A DNA stretch of 38,255 nt from a virus. Made by a program: the position numbers and the translations under genes. This document shows, piece after piece, positions 20,479 through 35,285 of the stretch. Below the pieces are notes generated by a model that worked only from the letters and a program-made list of their open reading frames with translations, was not told the DNA's origin and did no database searches. Every line of letters begins with the position of its first letter. Within the stretch, counting starts at the first letter, position 1. The DNA lies in the IMG/VR virus record IMGVR_UViG_3300017781_000042, positions 1 to 38,255 of that record; one strand, written 5' to 3'.

Positions 20479-20955
20479 TCAACCCGTAAAAAATATTTTT
20501 GTTAAAATAACTAAACCAAAGCATACAACAAAAAGAATCCCCGCTACAATGCCGCCAAGCTTTAGGTCTTCTAGTCTAGCCTCTTTTTCCTTTTGTACAC
20601 GAATTTTTTCTTGCTTAATCGCTTCCTTCTCTTCAGCGATCCGCTTGTTACGCTCCGCAATGATAGCTCGCCACGTTCCGTAACCGAAACGATTATCTAT
20701 CATTATCGAAATTTCTTCGAGTTGCTCTTGAGCTAATTTGGCATCTATAACCGAGTGAGCCGCATCCTTGGACTGCCCAATTAAAGACTTGTCACCAAAT
20801 CGTTTTTTTTGAACCTGTTTCTCACCTTCAAACAATCCATCTAACGCACCCGCAATATCACGAATATCATTAACCGTGTTTATGTTGCTCTTAATAAACT
20901 CAACCGACTTCTGTACAAGAGCAATGCCAGCTAAACCTGTGCTTATCGGATCCAT
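20479..20955 (-). CDS. Membrane-anchored coiled-coil protein (158 aa)
   Basis: Residues 1-45 are helical and hydrophobic at the start (MDPISTGLAGIALVQKSVEF), then a charged block leads to a long coiled coil at 95-130 (RNKRIAEEKEAIKQEKIRVQ). One membrane segment is at the C-terminus (GGIVAGILFVVCFGLVILTK). The ATG overlaps the terminase stop by one base. Proteins of this shape occur directly after terminase in marine phages. A spanin-, holin- or virion-ejection-related role is possible; I do not recognise the family. Confidence 0.6.
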   Translation of the reverse strand: MDPISTGLAGIALVQKSVEFIKSNINTVNDIRDIAGALDGLFEGEKQVQKKRFGDKSLIGQSKDAAHSVIDAKLAQEQLEEISIMIDNRFGYGTWRAIIAERNKRIAEEKEAIKQEKIRVQKEKEARLEDLKLGGIVAGILFVVCFGLVILTKIFFTG

Positions 20956-22430
20956 TAATAATACTCACGTTTCCTCGAAGGACGGTACTCCTCGTCCTCA
21001 TCCTCTTCTAACGTAACTAATCCGCCTTGTCTAAATCTAATCAAAGCCATAGTCATGCTATCACAGTAATCATCGTAGTCCCCGTTAGGAAAAGATGCAA
21101 CTTCTTCAATAACTTCATCCGAAAAAGGTTTGTCAGGAACCCAAACACGGCCAGCCTCGAACAACGGCGCAACCATATGCATACGAGTAGTCTTGTCTAT
21201 ACCACCGCGACCCTTGGCTCTACCGGGCGAATAAGTCAAAACAGGAATGTTGATACGCAAAAGTTCGTCCGCCAAAGGTTGACCCGATGCCTTCGCCTCA
21301 ATCAACACCATGTCCGGCTCCCAATACTCATACTGCTCCGCCGCGAGCTCCTTCAACTCTGGAAAATTGTACCGACCCTTCTGAGCATCAAGTAACACGA
21401 TGTGTTCTGTGTTGTCCTCCTCTGGATCAAACACGCCCCACGTTGTTATAGCCGTGTAGTCAGCCGTCTCTTTTTTCGAAAACGCAGTGTCATAGGATTG
21501 TAAAATATACTTTAAACGTGGAATCTTCTCCTTTGTCCACCTCTGCCACCACTCGCGCTTCACCATTGCCGTCTCTTCAGACGTTGGATTCTGCTGCCAC
21601 TGTGCGTTCCACTTAGTAGGCGAAAGTGACGCTTTCACCCCCAAAAGCTCTTCTTTTTTCCAAAACTCAGGCCAAACAGGGTTCCCCGACGGTAATATTG
21701 CAGGAAATTCTATCAAATCCCACTGATCAGCCATCGTGTCTTTCATCTGTTCGTTCAGTAACCGACCCGTCAAATCCTTCTTTGACCACCGTGTTTGAAC
21801 AATAATTATCGATCCACCAGGCTGTAAACGCTGTCTCGGTCCAGATGTGTACCACTCATACGTGTGATCATACGCAGTCGAAGATAAAGCATCTTGTTCC
21901 GAGTGCGGATCGTCAATAATCAATAAATCAGCACCACGTCCCGTCATCGCCGCACCAACACCCGCCGCAAAATACTCGCCCTTCTTACTCGTCTCCCAAC
22001 GACCAGCCGCCTGACTGTCCGCTTTCAAATCTGTATGCGGAAAAATTTCCCTGTATAAAGGATCAGCAATCAAATCACGAACCTTACGTCCGAACCGTGT
22101 GGCAAGCTCCGTGTTCATCGTTGCCTGAATAATTTTCAGTTTAGGGTTCCTTCCCAAAAACCATGCGGGCATCAAATATGATGCTAATTCAGATTTGGAA
22201 TGTCGGGGCGGCATGTTGATTATCAGACGTTTTAACTCCCCCCGTGCAACCGCTTCAAGCTTTTCGGATATAATTCGGTGATGGTTACCCTCGATAAAAT
22301 CATCGTAAACATGATGAGCAAAAGACATGAAACGATCTTTCGCCGCCTCGCGTCTCACGATACTTGCTTCTGCTTCCTTTAACAAAAGGATTTCTTTGAG
22401 GGCTTCCTCGGGAACGATGTCTAAGTTCAT
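20955..22430 (-). CDS. terL: Terminase large subunit (ATPase and nuclease)
   Basis: This is a 491-aa protein. The ATPase domain has a Walker-A-type loop PPRHSKSE (74-81) and Walker B LLIIDDPHSEQD (from 169). The RNase H-like nuclease domain has Asp314 (QSYDTAFSKKETADYTAIT), Glu378 (MVLIEAKASGQ) and Asp457 (YDDYCDSMTMALIRF) as the likely metal-binding acids. Length and motif order match Terminase_6-type proteins that package DNA into the prohead. It is the first gene of the minus-strand late operon. Its small subunit partner is not adjacent but lies about 3.5 kb away on the same strand (25912-26481), with plus-strand genes between. Confidence 0.93.
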   Translation of the reverse strand: MNLDIVPEEALKEILLLKEAEASIVRREAAKDRFMSFAHHVYDDFIEGNHHRIISEKLEAVARGELKRLIINMPPRHSKSELASYLMPAWFLGRNPKLKIIQATMNTELATRFGRKVRDLIADPLYREIFPHTDLKADSQAAGRWETSKKGEYFAAGVGAAMTGRGADLLIIDDPHSEQDALSSTAYDHTYEWYTSGPRQRLQPGGSIIIVQTRWSKKDLTGRLLNEQMKDTMADQWDLIEFPAILPSGNPVWPEFWKKEELLGVKASLSPTKWNAQWQQNPTSEETAMVKREWWQRWTKEKIPRLKYILQSYDTAFSKKETADYTAITTWGVFDPEEDNTEHIVLLDAQKGRYNFPELKELAAEQYEYWEPDMVLIEAKASGQPLADELLRINIPVLTYSPGRAKGRGGIDKTTRMHMVAPLFEAGRVWVPDKPFSDEVIEEVASFPNGDYDDYCDSMTMALIRFRQGGLVTLEEDEDEEYRPSRKREYY

Positions 22431-25059: not shown

Positions 25060-25133
25060 AATTGTTTCCGGGGCGGCGGCCCCGGGCGGCCCGGATCCCG
25101 GAGACGCAAGAGGCGCAAGGCGCAAGGCGCAAG
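25060..25133 (+). repeat. GC-rich plus GCGCAAG repeat, copy A
   Basis: A GC-rich stretch (GGGGCGGCGGCCCCGGGCGG and following CCCGG) is followed by GACGCAAG (25103) and three overlapping GGCGCAAG units (25112, 25119, 25126) on the same strand. It sits between the regulator and the next promoter. Its base composition is far above that of the neighbouring genes. The same two-part form occurs at 25465 and 25570. Confidence 0.7.
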
Positions 25134-25464: not shown

Positions 25465-25537
25465 CTGCCAGCACCCGCGGTACCCGGCACCCGGTGACAC
25501 CCGGAGGCGCAAGGCGCAAGAAGCCACAAGACGCAAG
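25465..25537 (+). repeat. GC-rich plus GCGCAAG repeat, copy B
   Basis: CCCGCGGTACCCGGCACCCG and ACACCCGG (about 25473-25504) are followed by GGCGCAAG at 25506 and 25513 and GACGCAAG at 25530. It follows the terminator of the 73-aa gene and lies in the gap after the nuclease stop. The orientation is the same as copies A and C. No gene is seen in the copy itself. Confidence 0.68.
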
Positions 25538-25569: not shown

Positions 25570-25627
25570 TGCCCCCGGCACCCGGTACCTGGCCCGGACT
25601 ATTCAGACGCAAGGCGCAAGGCGCAAG
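25570..25627 (+). repeat. GC-rich plus GCGCAAG repeat, copy C, entering a gene end
   Basis: CCCCCGGCACCCGGTACC and GGCCCGG are followed by GACGCAAG (25606), then GGCGCAAG at 25613 and 25620. Bases 25599-25627 are also the last codons of the nuclease gene on the minus strand, giving a CALRLASE tail. So this repeat probably became part of the coding end. Confidence 0.68.
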
Positions 25628-25985
25628 AAACACAGTCCGCAAGACTCGAATCGTGGTACAAGGGACTCGTTTTCAAGCCTTTTTCGTGCAATTCAAGGCT
25701 TTGACCGCCACCAAATAAAAATACATCGCCCTTCGAGGGGCGTGAAACTAAGAAAAAATTCTTACCGCCAGCTAGAGAATACTCATAATTCCATGCAATT
25801 TGAGCAGGACGAAGGTCAATTCGATTAGCTTTTGCTATCTTTAGTTCTAACCAGAAGGCTGACCCGTTATATGCAATGTGACTATCTGGAATACCTACGC
25901 CGACAGTGTTCTCAATCCTTGTCGTGTGTGATTTGGACGGGAGTTCTTTCTTCACTTGCTTCCACAATCTCTGTTCCGGTGACAT
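25599..25985 (-). CDS. VRR-NUC-type nuclease (128 aa)
   Basis: The PD-(D/E)xK fold is visible: a helical start (MSPEQRLWKQVKKEL), Gly/Pro-rich GVGIPDSHIAYNG with Asp34, then FWLELKIAKA with Glu47 and Lys49, then RPAQIAWNYEYS (Gln62). This is the VRR-NUC order, used in structure-specific or Holliday-junction nucleases. Start ATG 25985 has AAGG before it; an earlier TTG is less likely. The gene overlaps terS by 74 bases. Its last nine residues (SCALRLASE) are repeat-derived, so the fold probably ends before them. Role in packaging or recombination is inferred. Confidence 0.75.
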   Translation of the reverse strand: MSPEQRLWKQVKKELPSKSHTTRIENTVGVGIPDSHIAYNGSAFWLELKIAKANRIDLRPAQIAWNYEYSLAGGKNFFLVSRPSKGDVFLFGGGQSLELHEKGLKTSPLYHDSSLADCVSCALRLASE

Positions 25986-26481
25986 CCCTAACCTTCCCTT
26001 CAATAAATGCAGACGGATATTCGTTGCGTAGTTTTGAAAGGCGTTCAGCTATTTCCTCTCGTGACATATTATCAATAGAGTGTATGTGCTGATTCTCTCT
26101 TCGGTCTACAGTAAGACCACCAAGTGATGACCTAATCTTTTCGGCATTGATGGCGGCAGAAAACTGACCTTCTTCTTCTGCTGATCTCGACAGTTCTGAA
26201 AATCTTTTCAACTGACCGATTAGGGTGACACCAAATTTTTTCTCTCGTTCTTCTCGTAACTCGGTGATGTGTTGTGTGACCAAAGGATAATCTTTGCCGT
26301 TTAACAAACGAGAAGCATGGACATTCGCACTTTCTTTTGCGTATCCAGCCCGTCTTGCACATTCTGCGTTGGAATAAATACCTTCAATATAGAGTTTAGC
26401 AAACTCTCGTTGCCTATTTGTAAGGTAACGACCTTCGTTTTCTATATCTTCTTTAGATTTAGTTTCTTTTACTTCTGACAT
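25912..26481 (-). CDS. terS: Terminase small subunit
   Basis: This is a 189-aa protein. LTNRQREFAKLYIEGIYSNA followed by ARRAGYAKESANVHASRLLN gives the HTH signature of Terminase_2-type small subunits (about residues 20-62). A coil segment (GQLKRFSELSRSAEEEGQFS) probably mediates ring assembly, and the C-terminal part is acidic and flexible. AAAGGATAG precedes the ATG. It would bind the pac or cos site and hand DNA to terL, which is 3.5 kb away on the same strand. A periodic repeat lies just upstream of its start. Confidence 0.85.
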   Translation of the reverse strand: MSEVKETKSKEDIENEGRYLTNRQREFAKLYIEGIYSNAECARRAGYAKESANVHASRLLNGKDYPLVTQHITELREEREKKFGVTLIGQLKRFSELSRSAEEEGQFSAAINAEKIRSSLGGLTVDRRENQHIHSIDNMSREEIAERLSKLRNEYPSAFIEGKVRDVTGTEIVEASEERTPVQITHDKD

Positions 26482-26504: not shown

Positions 26505-26592
26505 AGTGTATAAGTGTATATGAAGTGTATAAAAAAAACCTAAGTAAAACAGTCTTGTATTATACTTTTATACATTTATACATTTATACACT
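26505..26592. repeat. 8-bp-periodic TTATAC array with DnaA-box-like sites
   Basis: GTGTATA occurs at 26506, 26514 and 26525; four TTATAC copies start at 26560, 26568, 26576 and 26584, exactly 8 bases apart. TTATACACT occurs at 26584-26592 (plus), 26524-26532 and 26505-26513 (both minus), each matching the DnaA box (TTATNCACA) at eight of nine positions. The 26482-26757 gap holds no gene. Either a replication origin or a terminase-binding (pac) site is plausible. Confidence 0.6.
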
Positions 26593-26677
26593 CTAGATGA
26601 AAAAAATTTACTAAACATTTTTAAATCTACAGAGAGTATATAACGTATGTTTTTCCAGCACTTTTCCAAATGCTTTG

Positions 26678-26706: not shown

Positions 26707-26757
26707 AAACATGCCTGATTATACGGGCGTTTTTATTAATTTTCAACGAGGTATAAC

Positions 26758-28002: not shown

Positions 28003-28179
28003 ATGCCTAAATATAACGTAGGACGTATTCAACATTTTAAGGAATACATAATAGTCGAGGCTTCTTCAGAGGAGGAAGCTTTCGACAAGCTTAGAGACGA
28101 GATAGATAGTGGTGAGCGATTGAACCATGTTTATTTCGAGGGCGATGGTGAGTTGGTTTGTGTGGAGGAGACAGATTGA
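28003..28179 (+). CDS. Small accessory protein (58 aa)
   Basis: A very strong AAGGAGGTG ribosome site supports the ATG at 28003. The 58-aa protein (MPKYNVGRIQHFKEYIIVEA) has helix and beta segments and an acidic tail (GDGELVCVEETD). Its stop overlaps the methyltransferase ATG by one base. Function is unknown. Confidence 0.6.
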   Translation: MPKYNVGRIQHFKEYIIVEASSEEEAFDKLRDEIDSGERLNHVYFEGDGELVCVEETD

Positions 28180-29150
28180 TGAGGCACGTTGATTTATGTT
28201 CGGGCATTGGAGGTTTCGCACTTGGTTTCGAGTGGGCGGAATTATCCAAGCCTGTTTTGTTCTGCGACATAGAACCTTGGAGTCGCAAGATTATTAATAA
28301 ACATTGGCCTGATGTGCCGATAGCAGAAGATGTAAAGGAATTAGCAAATGACCCAGAAAGAACTGTTCCCGACTGTGACATCCTCACAGCCGGATATCCG
28401 TGCCAACCTTTTTCGCAAGCCGGAAGACGCAAGGGCGAAGAAGACCCTCGCCACATCTTCCCGTACATTATGCAAATTGTTGCATCCAAAAGACCCTCTT
28501 GGTGCGTTTTCGAAAACGTTTATGGTCACGTCAGCATGGGATTGGACACTGCGCTCACTGCAATGGAAGCAGAAGGTTACGCCACGAGGCCGTTTATTAT
28601 TCCAGCTATATCCGTCGGCGCACCTCACCGAAGAGACAGAATCTTCATCGTCGGACGACTTGCGGACGACACTGGAAGAGCAGGTTTGTCCAGAAGCGAA
28701 CAAGCTGTGGGCGACTCCGGCGGCGGCGGACGCGGTGGGTTCAACGGGGGGAGGACAGGGCAAGAGTCTACGGACGGATGTTCGGATGTGGCCTACCCCA
28801 ACGACGAGGGATTACAAGGGAGCGTCAGGCAAGGGCAGACAGGAACGCAAGGGCAATCCGGCGGACACGTTACCCAACGCAGTAGCGATGTGGCCTACGC
28901 CGACAGCGAACGAGGATGCGGCGGGGACACCCAACGGCAAGATGCAGAAGATGCTGGGCAACCACCCAGAGATTCGTGGAACGTCACCGGAGGAGTGGAA
29001 ACGTGGGGCGTTGAACCCGACGTGGGTAGAGTGGCTAATGGGATACCCAAAAGGGTGGACAGAATTAGAGGACTAGGCAACGCGATTGTCCCCCAGATAG
29101 CAAAACAAATTGGATTAGCAATAAAGGAGACAGAGAATGTTAGATATTAA
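28179..29150 (+). CDS. Phage DNA cytosine-5 methyltransferase
   Basis: This is a 323-aa protein from the ATG at 28179. Motif I (DLCSGIGGFALG, 5-16), motif IV (GYPCQPFS with catalytic Cys75), motif VI (ENV, 112-114), motif VIII (RRDRIFIVG, from 151) and motif X (GLGNAIVPQIA, from 298) are all present and in order, so it should be active. Residues 161-297 are Gly/Gln/Ser/Asp-rich, with a repeated VAY-D or VANGI pattern, and would hold the short target-recognition domain. A second gene is encoded in the same bases (28348-29076). Methylation probably protects phage DNA from host restriction; the recognition site is not known. Confidence 0.9.
   Translation: MRHVDLCSGIGGFALGFEWAELSKPVLFCDIEPWSRKIINKHWPDVPIAEDVKELANDPERTVPDCDILTAGYPCQPFSQAGRRKGEEDPRHIFPYIMQIVASKRPSWCVFENVYGHVSMGLDTALTAMEAEGYATRPFIIPAISVGAPHRRDRIFIVGRLADDTGRAGLSRSEQAVGDSGGGGRGGFNGGRTGQESTDGCSDVAYPNDEGLQGSVRQGQTGTQGQSGGHVTQRSSDVAYADSERGCGGDTQRQDAEDAGQPPRDSWNVTGGVETWGVEPDVGRVANGIPKRVDRIRGLGNAIVPQIAKQIGLAIKETENVRY
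28348..29076 (+). CDS. Nested out-of-frame conserved protein inside the methyltransferase gene
   Basis: A 242-aa frame lies one base out of phase wholly inside the methyltransferase gene. It has its own AAGGA ribosome site (28335-28339) eight bases before the ATG. Motifs match a phage family I recognise: LWATPAAADA (120-129), MWPTPTTRDYKG (147-158), MWPTPTANEDAAG (181-193), LNPTWVEWLMGYPKGW then TELED at the end (222-242). The WPTPT motifs use the same bases as VAYPND / VAYADS in the methyltransferase, and the GYPKGWTELED end shares bases with GIPKRVDRIRGLGN, part of motif X. Function is unknown; a partner or specificity role for the methyltransferase is a guess. Confidence 0.75.
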   Translation: MTQKELFPTVTSSQPDIRANLFRKPEDARAKKTLATSSRTLCKLLHPKDPLGAFSKTFMVTSAWDWTLRSLQWKQKVTPRGRLLFQLYPSAHLTEETESSSSDDLRTTLEEQVCPEANKLWATPAAADAVGSTGGGQGKSLRTDVRMWPTPTTRDYKGASGKGRQERKGNPADTLPNAVAMWPTPTANEDAAGTPNGKMQKMLGNHPEIRGTSPEEWKRGALNPTWVEWLMGYPKGWTELED

Positions 29151-32216: not shown

Positions 32217-32244
32217 TTGTAACGCTAATATAGATATGTATTAT
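32217..32244 (+). promoter_or_regulatory. Plus-strand promoter for the replication genes
   Basis: TTGTAA (32217-32222) and TATTAT (32239-32244) are 16 bases apart, each four or five of six to consensus. It would drive the replication block from 32296. It overlaps the opposite promoter at 32227. Confidence 0.6.
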
Positions 32245-32255
32245 GTGAATTGCAA
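32227..32255 (-). promoter_or_regulatory. Minus-strand promoter for the SNF2 helicase
   Basis: On the minus strand TTGCAA (complement of 32250-32255) and TATATT (complement of 32227-32232) are 17 bases apart. The transcript would enter the helicase ATG at 32198. The two opposed promoters overlap by 18 bases, so RNA polymerase can probably use only one at a time. Confidence 0.6.
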
Positions 32256-32295
32256 GTGGGCACACTATAAATGCGTAACAGAGAAAGGTGACACA

Positions 32296-32859
32296 ATGTC
32301 CGATTTATTTGAAAAGATGGAAGCAGATGCAAAAGCTTTTTCCGAAGTGTCAGAAGACCAAGGGAGTGCTTTAGCTAACCTAGTTAAAGCAGCACAAGAT
32401 GCGGATGCGAATATCAAATACTACAAAGAGCAACAAAACATTGCTCAAAAAGATTATGACCAGATCATAAGAGAACTTATCCCGGCAGCTATGGATTCAA
32501 TGGGATTGGAGAGTGTTAGTGTTGAAGGCAACTCTATAACTCTGCAACCCTTTGTCTATGCTCGTATCACAGAAGATAATAAAGACGCATGTTTCGCGTA
32601 TCTTCGTGGACGGGGTTTGGACGACATTATCAAGAACGAAGTCAAAGTCACATTCGGTAAGGGTGAAGACAACGAGGCTGGTGCGTTTCTTGATGATGCA
32701 GTCAACAAAGGTCTTTCAGTTGACAACAAGAAGACCATTCACCCCAGTACATTGAAGGCGGTGGTAAAAGATGAAATGTCTCAAGGTAGAATGTCTGAAA
32801 AAGACCTTGAGGCTTTCAGTGTGTTTAGTGGAATAGAAGCAAAGATTAGGAGAAAGTAA
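32296..32859 (+). CDS. Conserved phage protein beside the putative ssDNA-binding gene (187 aa)
   Basis: The start at 32296 (AAAGGTG before the ATG) gives MSDLFEKMEADAKAFSEVSE, a coil (KYYKEQQNIAQKDYDQIIRE), then LIPAAMDSMGLESVSVEGNS, KDACFAYLRGRGLDDIIKNE, KVTFGKGEDNEA and a charged C-terminal helix. It is a family recognisable in podophage replication regions, upstream of ssDNA-binding-type genes. Its role is not established; an accessory DNA-binding function is likely. Confidence 0.62.
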   Translation: MSDLFEKMEADAKAFSEVSEDQGSALANLVKAAQDADANIKYYKEQQNIAQKDYDQIIRELIPAAMDSMGLESVSVEGNSITLQPFVYARITEDNKDACFAYLRGRGLDDIIKNEVKVTFGKGEDNEAGAFLDDAVNKGLSVDNKKTIHPSTLKAVVKDEMSQGRMSEKDLEAFSVFSGIEAKIRRK

Positions 32860-33755: not shown

Positions 33756-35285
33756 ATGGACAATGTTCAAAAGTTCATGGCGGCATTTCGTGGATTTGAT
33801 GGCGCACATGGACAGACAATTATTACAGGAGGGCGTGTAAATGGTAAATCAGAAGCCAAAACGCGAATCATCCGAGAGCCGATCACGGCAGAAAAAATCC
33901 AAGAACACTTCGATGGTGGAAAAGGTATTGGTAGTATTCCTATCAATGCTAACAATCAGTGCTCTTTCGGTTGTATTGATATTGACACCTATCCTTTGGA
34001 TCATGCTGATCTTGTTGGCAAGTGTAGGCAACTGGATATTCCAGGTATTGTCTGTAGATCCAAAAGTGGTGGGGCGCACATTTACTTCTTTATCGATGGT
34101 GAAATTTCTGCGGCAGATATGCGGGACAAGCTATCAGAAATTGCGGCAGTTCTGGGGCAAGGTAACTCAGAAATATTTCCCAAGCAGGAAAAACTCCTTG
34201 TCGAAAGAGGCGATGTCGGAAACGCTATCAACCTTCCCTATCATGATGTCGAACGCACTCTCCGTCCCGCGTTCACAAACAAGGGAAAGGAGGCGACTTT
34301 ACAGCAGTTTCTGGCAATGGTGGAGAAGTCGCGTAAAACACCTAGCGAATTTATGTCTATCCAAGTTTCAGGCGGCAGTGAAATACTTGTCGAAGCTCCG
34401 CCGTGCTTAGAGTGTCATGTCCGCAATGGAGTTGGGCAGGGTGGTAGAAACTGTGTGGCGTTTAATCTTGCCACATATTTTAAGAAGCAGAACCCGAAGC
34501 AGTGGAAGCAGGACGTTGAAGCCGCCAACCATTCGTATTTTCAACCACCACTTCCTGCATCTGAGCTTGTCACCATCCAGGATCAGATAGAAAAGAAAGA
34601 TTATTTCTATCAGTGTAATGAGCCACAACTTGCCATGCACTGCAATAAAAGCCTGTGTCGTCAACGCAAATACGGCATCGGCAACAGTGCTCGAAATGTT
34701 GAGATTACCGGACTAACAGTTGTAAAGTCGGAGCCTCGTATATGGTTTGTCGATGTGGCGGGCGCACGTCTTGAACTCACAACAGAGCAACTACAGATGC
34801 CCACGCAGTTTCAACGTGCTTGCATGGAGCAGCTGAACTTTATGCCTCCTAAACTTAAAGAAGACACATGGCAAACAGTTGTGAACGTAGCACTTACTGA
34901 AGTCGTCGAGATTGAAGTTCCGGTTGAACTGACAAACAAAGGGCAGTTTATGGAGTTACTCGAGAACTTCTGTGCAGGACGGGTACAAGCGCAGTCATGG
35001 GAGGAGTTAGACCTTAATAAGCCATACACAGAGGAAGGACACACTTATTTTAAAATGGCGGCACTGATGAATTTTCTCAAAGCACAGAACTTCCTTACCT
35101 ACACCAAGGGGCAAGTGCAGGAACGTATCAAAGAATTGAACGATGGTGAGACATCACATCAACTCAAACAGTACAAAAACTCTAAAGCAGAATGGAAATC
35201 TGTCCGAGTTTGGTCTGTTCCCGAGTTCAAAGAACCCATTGATATTCCTGGCATCAATGTCGGTGGAGAGGAGATTCCGTTTTGA
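33756..35285 (+). CDS. TOTE-type archaeo-eukaryotic primase (509 aa)
   Basis: The AEP catalytic motifs are visible: CIDIDTYP with Asp75 and Asp77, SKSGGAH (102-108), and EIFPKQ with NAINLPYH (139-163), the arrangement of TOTE-conflict and phage primases. Downstream lies a cysteine array, Cys217-x2-Cys220, Cys233, Cys287, Cys296 and Cys301 (CLEC, NCVAF, YQCNEP, HCNKSLC), which could hold zinc or an Fe-S cluster. The C-terminal 200 residues are less clear. It should make primers for the adjacent DNA polymerase. An AAGG site precedes the ATG. The stop overlaps the helicase TTG start. Confidence 0.8.
   Translation: MDNVQKFMAAFRGFDGAHGQTIITGGRVNGKSEAKTRIIREPITAEKIQEHFDGGKGIGSIPINANNQCSFGCIDIDTYPLDHADLVGKCRQLDIPGIVCRSKSGGAHIYFFIDGEISAADMRDKLSEIAAVLGQGNSEIFPKQEKLLVERGDVGNAINLPYHDVERTLRPAFTNKGKEATLQQFLAMVEKSRKTPSEFMSIQVSGGSEILVEAPPCLECHVRNGVGQGGRNCVAFNLATYFKKQNPKQWKQDVEAANHSYFQPPLPASELVTIQDQIEKKDYFYQCNEPQLAMHCNKSLCRQRKYGIGNSARNVEITGLTVVKSEPRIWFVDVAGARLELTTEQLQMPTQFQRACMEQLNFMPPKLKEDTWQTVVNVALTEVVEIEVPVELTNKGQFMELLENFCAGRVQAQSWEELDLNKPYTEEGHTYFKMAALMNFLKAQNFLTYTKGQVQERIKELNDGETSHQLKQYKNSKAEWKSVRVWSVPEFKEPIDIPGINVGGEEIPF

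Follow-up and report, generated by a model that had tools for sequence, protein, structure and literature searches.

A repeat array near the small terminase gene of related phages as a probable iteron-type replication origin, with the phage primase-polymerase as candidate initiator

An array of short repeats in a virus contig of 38,255 bases (the window, by which the full stretch is meant throughout) is probably an iteron-type replication origin, with the primase-polymerase (prim-pol) of the phage as its initiator. By computation, the array was followed through relatives that have its architecture in common, its units were found to change in concert, the C-terminal domain of the prim-pol was modelled as a winged helix, the wing of this domain was compared statistically with the unit, and cultured phages with a related prim-pol were found to carry arrays upstream of the prim-pol gene. 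From these comparisons the array and its reader, which together would act as a kind of password, seem to change jointly between closely related viruses.

The array in the window and in uncultured relatives

Three direct units, AGTGTATA(A/T), were read on the plus strand at 26505, 26513 and 26524 and recovered by a unit search, and TTATAC recurs at 26560, 26568, 26576 and 26584 in steps of exactly 8 bp, three of these occurrences being good units on the minus strand. The array (26505-26592) comprises three direct and three to four inverted units, given here with the adjoining features.

26505..26513, plus strand, iteron unit AGTGTATAA, exact match
26513..26521, plus strand, iteron unit AGTGTATAT, 1 mismatch
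26524..26532, plus strand, iteron unit AGTGTATAA, exact match, after an 11 bp step that is common among relatives
26560..26568, minus strand, additional degenerate unit, AAAGTATAA on that strand, read from the sequence
26568..26576, minus strand, iteron unit AATGTATAA, from the unit search
26576..26584, minus strand, iteron unit AATGTATAA, from the unit search
26584..26592, minus strand, iteron unit AGTGTATAA, exact match
26600..26625, no strand, A/T tract adjoining the direct triple, candidate unwinding element, from the sequence and the same place in relatives
25912..26481, minus strand, terS, small terminase, the neighbour of the array (Pfam Terminase_2, E 3.8e-9)

An earlier note on this DNA had described a repeat array near terS, directly upstream of its start. 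Both points are confirmed: the units lie at the same positions, a template of three direct and three inverted units recurs in relatives and in no shuffled sequence, and the array comes to within 24 bp of terS on its upstream side, whose ATG is at 26481 on the minus strand and whose identity is given by Pfam Terminase_2. Tandem repeat scores (TRF) for the array are 55 and 34. Single 9-mers counted across the whole window gave 9 matches against 9.9 expected, which is ordinary; the unusual feature of the array is its clustering and symmetry rather than the number of 9-mers.

The array sits between divergent gene blocks. To one side are terL (20955-22430), terS and, after terS, a nuclease-like gene, and the rightward early and replication genes encode an SNF2-like helicase, gp33-like and gp34-like proteins, the prim-pol and a UvrD-like helicase. 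Such a position would suit an operator array at which a phage transcription regulator, perhaps the prim-pol regulating itself, acts between the early genes and the terS side, and a concerted change of operator and reader, which is typical of immunity systems, would fit as well. This explanation is nevertheless unlikely, as no family-wide regulator gene is present among the core clusters inspected, promoter-like sites in the window are not in excess, and the A/T tract and the link to the initiator indicate an origin. The promoter that the earlier note had placed near the array is a weak remark: two promoter-like sites are present but shuffles expect 2.4. The leader of the early genes that run rightward contains, at 26711-26730, a terminator-like stem with a T tail, which by eye is kept in the close relatives L002-L010. 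Between terL and terS there are also GC-rich 7-bp repeats (AGGCGCA/CGCAAGG) at three places (25101-25133, 25505-25520 and 25608-25627), and comparable CAAGC-rich repeats are found ahead of a nuclease-like region in phage HTVC027P (L082:7200-7260).

Relatives were sought in IMG/VR, where 203 rows of loci, many of them overlapping, came from scanning with three TerS queries (best 80 per scan); the loci as a whole were those most similar to one of three TerS or five prim-pol sequences used as queries, best 80 per scan, and are a non-random sample. When near-identical regions were counted once, 127 unique terS-upstream regions of at least 330 bp were obtained. A score of at least 72 under a strict template, which asks for three direct 8-mers and for three more in inverted orientation, was counted as an array; 103 of the 127 and none of 381 dinucleotide shuffles reached it. 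Removal of the cultured outgroups HTVC027P and HTVC023P, both of which are without a strict array, leaves 125 regions from uncultured relatives, 103 with three direct and three inverted units of 8-9 bp. Among the 22 that fall short of the strict template, 13 have at least five copies of a 6-mer (shuffles 0/220), four have four copies (shuffles 7/220) and five have fewer; one of these last five, G007, carries a perfect array (score 96) elsewhere in its own genome. In the usual geometry the steps are of 8-9 bp and a gap of some 40-50 bp precedes the first inverted unit, which is followed after 9-12 or 20-21 bp by two more. The comparison of spacing with related phages that the earlier note had proposed shows that the array is a family trait in which this geometry is kept, and the loss of the repeat in close relatives, which it had named as evidence against its reading, did not occur.

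Two marks of iteron origins are seen in the array, namely multiple short repeats at regular spacing and an A/T-rich region alongside. At the place of the A/T tract the A+T content is 0.89-0.93 in 120 unique arrays, and a run of at least six A or T lies within 70 bp in 114 of these 120, against 20 of 120 farther out. The units themselves differ between relatives (examples are GTGTAACA, GTGTAACG, GTGTGACA, GTGTTACA, GTGGGACA, GTGTACTC, GTGTTCTC and GTGTCCTAA), with at least 18 distinct core units among the 54 unique records that hold both array and prim-pol, and in most loci the six copies carry the change in common, which makes the variation concerted. Arrays that mix two types of unit were seen in L022, L033, L036, L125, L131 and L147, often with copies 1-3 and 6 set against copies 4-5. 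L125 follows this pattern (GTGTGACA in copies 1-3 and 6, GTGTGCCA in copies 4-5) and L022 is divided into GTGTTACA in copies 1-3 and GTGGGACA in copies 4-6; such arrays may be intermediates or may reflect two binding modes. When 16 uncultured genomes were scanned with their own unit, additional copies mostly adjoined the main array, and additional loose clusters of units were observed in G002 and G019. HTVC023P has CTAGGAAAA at steps of about 10 bp upstream of terS, in direct orientation only (L083:7780-7870), possibly a related origin in a different phage with a prim-pol.

DnaA, the small terminase and packaging

The earlier note had taken the array for an origin, or for the packaging start site of the small terminase, bound cooperatively by one protein. 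An origin is the reading that fits best; DnaA and the small terminase, its two candidates for that protein, fared less well. The DnaA box has the consensus TTATNCACA, and the three similar sites that the note had pointed out are present as TTATACACT at 26584 (plus strand), 26505 and 26524 (both minus strand), each agreeing at eight of nine positions. Across the family this likeness is lost. A box with at most one mismatch occurs in 11 of 103 unique arrays and in 14 of 103 shuffled ones, which leaves 92 of the 103 arrays without one, and the DnaA box was rejected on the ground that, family-wide, the arrays fit the consensus no better than shuffled letters. The unit is not a DnaA box because it varies between relatives, mostly in all copies together. 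A DnaA-dependent origin is refuted for the family and its probability is put close to nil.

Several observations speak for a pac or cos packaging site read by the small terminase. In the window the array is 24 bp upstream of terS, and most relatives also have it near this gene. TerS belongs to a family with a DNA-binding fold, a second array is found upstream of terS in the cultured phage SH-Ab 15497, and in two pairs of relatives with different units 9 of 65 residues in the TerS HTH region are changed. Contig ends are also commoner than average up to 300 bp from the terS start: of 150 loci counted, 27 have an end between -100 and 300 bp of terS, a stretch of four 100-bp bins that are fuller than the others. 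When the ends near terS were compared, however, they were scattered and no common sequence or cut was found among them, and the excess is put down to breaks in assembly where A/T runs and variable repeats occur. More directly, L015 and L016 have identical TerS (188/188 aa) but different units (GTGTACTC and GTGTTCTC), as do L292 and L280 (166/166 aa), and the units of L300/L284 and L511/L284 differ while the TerS HTH is unchanged. In G007 the array is intact at 21.0-21.1 kb beside a nuclease gene, about 9.6 kb from the prim-pol, although terS has moved 24 kb off, to 45.1-45.7 kb among tail genes. TerS is probably not the reader, since units differ despite identical TerS and the G007 array has no terS nearby. 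Together with the presence of an array at the prim-pol gene of cultured phages, these findings make a packaging site improbable.

Two other candidate readers were set aside. The TerS-adjacent nuclease is identical in L015 and L016 (139/139 aa) despite their different units, and a cytosine methyltransferase is found, in a first comparison, in 13 of 24 other genomes and is absent from the G021 contig, G021 having its unit in common with G022, which does encode the enzyme. Between the window (28158-29150) and G022, which are close relatives, the target-recognition part of this methyltransferase is wholly swapped (22/22 aa window).

GC skew, a further check named in the earlier note, was computed. 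In several long contigs the minimum does lie in the terL-array region, but it follows gene direction, which switches there too, so that the skew is uninformative for the origin.

The prim-pol winged helix and its wing

The preferred reading, that of an origin with the prim-pol as initiator, turns on the following features.

33756..35285, plus strand, primase-polymerase with AEP-TOTE, PriCT-like and winged-helix parts, proposed initiator (Pfam and fold match)
34935..35222, plus strand, C-terminal winged helix, aa 394-489 (AlphaFold2 domain model, pLDDT 91.3, pTM 0.82, and also in the full-length model)
35139..35207, plus strand, wing, aa 462-484, proposed specificity reader (covariation with the unit, mixed tests)

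The prim-pol has an AEP catalytic domain and, in the predicted models, a C-terminal winged helix. Pfam gave AEP-TOTE (E 9.5e-18) and a PriCT_1 match of 20.6 bits, below the cut-off of 21.1, and no fused helicase domain; its fold matches the CAPP Prim-Pol 7p9j (E 1.4e-10). In the AlphaFold2 model of the winged helix the third helix spans 451-461 and the wing strands 468-474 and 480-489. Structural matches to this domain reach a Z of 6.7 at best, all below 8 as is usual for winged helices, and include TcpK (6.4), the C-terminal domain of SCCmec Cch (5dgk, 6.2) and SaPIbov1 Rep (8tch, 5.1); since Z is below 8, kinship to Cch and SaPI Rep is not shown. The origin-binding domain of phage P4 alpha (structure 1KA8) is absent among the structural matches listed, an absence that says little.

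The wing was compared with the unit in the 54 unique records, five of 59 that are without a strict array being left out of the wing tests (L271 and L499 are examples of loci without one). By eye, the wing follows the unit across the 54. The prim-pol of the window is 96% identical to those of G021 and G022, which have another unit, and 6 of the 16 window-specific changes fall at aa 466-482. In a set of four prim-pols that share at least 91% identity with their neighbours, the wings KIN, TRT, MKQ and MKK go with GTGTCCTAA, GTGTGAGAA, GTGTTATAA and GTGTAACAA, respectively. In eight independent pairs with different units the wing, which makes up 22 of 497 columns, holds 38 of 189 changes, compared with 15 of 188 in 13 pairs with the same unit (Fisher p 5e-4), and it is the top prim-pol window in this comparison; at the level of pairs and with the discovery pair removed, p is 0.025. 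The eight unit-different pairs have one N difference in the third helix and 52 in the wing. A partial rank correlation with unit distance, in which prim-pol distance was kept fixed, was calculated on 49 of the 54 records over 2567 windows of seven core proteins and placed the wing first (r 0.468); a UvrD window came next (0.393), with another prim-pol window at 0.386 and TerS at 0.321.

Other tests run against this. Permutation of labels at pair level over all prim-pol windows did not single out the wing (p 0.41), Fisher scans gave small p values for windows of gp33, UvrD and PolA as well, and in a within-clade permutation scan N-terminal alignment edges outranked the wing (family-wise p 0.021), with residue 482 as the top single column. 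The wing can also change while the unit does not (5/11 in L297/L295 and 3/11 in L524/L270), and local divergence is not peculiar to the prim-pol, stronger windows being present in tail, methyltransferase and helicase proteins. On the sequences compared, the link between wing and unit is well supported but not proven, the latter because the permutation, Fisher and within-clade scans and these two pairs run against it. The same tests bear on whether an origin of this kind is read by a different replication protein of the phage, for which the gp33-like protein and the UvrD-like helicase are examples. In the permutation scan at pair level one window of gp33 does pass (p 0.0066), and the small Fisher values for UvrD and PolA point the same way, yet gp33 has no window among the first 12 of the partial-correlation scan, has no recognised DNA-reading domain (Pfam DUF7307 only) and does not adjoin the array in either phage type examined, and an origin read by a protein of this sort is considered very unlikely. 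The gp33-like protein is encoded at 32236-32859 of the window, and the passing of its window may be due to chance, to hitch-hiking or to a role as partner in an origin complex.

Synonymous sites in the wing are changed as well. In unit-different pairs pS is 0.52 in the wing and 0.29 elsewhere, and pN is 0.121 and 0.023, pN/pS remaining below 1; in L297/L295, 9 of 13 synonymous sites in the wing are changed compared with 19 of 294 in the rest. This raised synonymous change points to short recombination of the wing segment, in preference to simple selection on codons, as the apparent source of wing change.

Further evidence for the prim-pol as reader comes from cultured phages. Twenty-five phage records match the prim-pol at less than 60% identity, and of the 17 whose prim-pol regions were examined 15 carry repeat units at a distance of 140-265 bp ahead of the prim-pol start, in a comparable direct and inverted layout, with six copies in 13 phages, four in JeffCo and three in Barton; no clear array was found in the other two regions examined, those of DSL-LC04 and MW202510. 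The array-bearing distant phages infect Acinetobacter, Klebsiella, Salmonella, Pseudomonas and Providencia. After the wing, an array beside the prim-pol in phages as distant as these is, in our view, the strongest argument for the proposed initiator. Eight Acinetobacter phages with prim-pols 95-100% identical to that of SH-Ab 15497 show three wing types matched with three unit types: GHGALK..SSVKVWY with GAGCAACC (four phages), GHGAIK..SAVKVWY with GAGAAACC/GAGTAACC (two phages) and GHGSIK..SAVKVWH with GAGGAACC/GAGTAACC (two phages). SH-Ab 15497 (L557:20959-21067 and 43040-43140) and Kokobel2 (L558:14181-14298 and 39185-39267) have two arrays each, the second of SH-Ab 15497 lying directly before terS of the circular record. 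Phage P4 likewise has two iteron regions.

Mechanism, comparable systems and origin specificity

How the array would be physically bound and melted, its function as an origin and the order of these events are inferred, as follows. The C-terminal winged helix of the prim-pol would bind each unit of 8-9 bp, whose variable bases would be read by the wing. With three molecules bound to the direct set and another three to the inverted set, the adjoining A/T tract would melt, and the prim-pol would also prime and recruit PolA and the phage helicases encoded nearby. Joint change of wing and units would give rise to different origin specificities among related phages.

The nearest known systems are P4 alpha, pRN1, the winged-helix domains of PrimPol-PV1, SaPI Rep, Cch2 and PLE RepA. 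P4 alpha combines a primase and a C-terminal winged-helix origin-binding domain in one protein and binds origin repeats (PMC4234260); it has a Toprim primase and a helicase domain, whereas the protein described here is an AEP prim-pol without a fused helicase. PrimPol-PV1 primases (PrimQH, PolpTN2-like) have the order AEP, PriCT, winged helix, and their winged helix has been suggested to recognise origins (PMC5862659). The prim-pol has this same order, a likeness of domain order rather than an assignment to the family. The part of that paper considered here names no origin repeats or specificity residues, whereas a candidate origin and wing residues are proposed in the present work. In the SaPI Rep and SCCmec Cch/Cch2 helicases a C-terminal domain binds short iterons (PMC7581432), and the winged helices of SaPI Rep and Cch are among the matches to the prim-pol model (8tch and 5dgk, above). 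These are helicase initiators with an origin downstream of their own gene, unlike the arrangement here. TcpK, which acts at oriT of pCW3, is a winged helix that reads nine-nucleotide tandem repeats mainly through its wing (PMC6137059) and thus offers a precedent, high among the structural matches, for the reading of short repeats by a wing; it is an accessory protein of conjugation, not a replication initiator, and the likeness is one of fold, without a shown relation in sequence. In PLE RepA the DNA-binding domain and the iterons co-vary between relatives and work as a swappable module, in a setting that includes the ICP1 nuclease Odn (PMC8263062). By analogy, reader and repeats seem to co-vary here and module exchange may be comparable, but PLE iterons are semi-palindromic and some 30 bp long, RepA_N, unlike the reader proposed here, is no prim-pol, and PLE is a satellite rather than a phage.

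Iteron origins and initiator winged helices are already known as kinds. What appears to be new is a co-varying wing/iteron code, together with the speed at which array and reader change in concert throughout a large group of phages; within the portions of the open-licence PMC literature covered, no description of the array or of such a code for these phages was found. Change in this code is perhaps driven by short exchanges of the wing. More tentatively, and with rather less than even confidence, it is suggested that origin specificity is an exchangeable password, in which some 22 wing codons and a 90-bp array 7-11 kb away switch jointly, partly through short gene conversions in the wing, thereby creating replication-incompatibility groups among phages that co-infect or against parasites that would steal or cut origins. 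PLE and Odn provide a precedent for diversification of origins against parasites (PMC8263062). If the suggestion is true, natural alleles spell out a readable code from wing residue to base.

Hundreds of related phages with an apparently single origin design present many variants of the unit and, because one design carries many core units, reader residues and the bases they read can be compared across natural variants. This opens to test how origin specificity evolves and whether its diversification serves to avoid cross-replication or parasites. A candidate origin is also provided for marine phages that have no representative in culture and for phages in culture, among them SH-Ab 15497, the genome of which uses 2-aminoadenine (PMC8342488).
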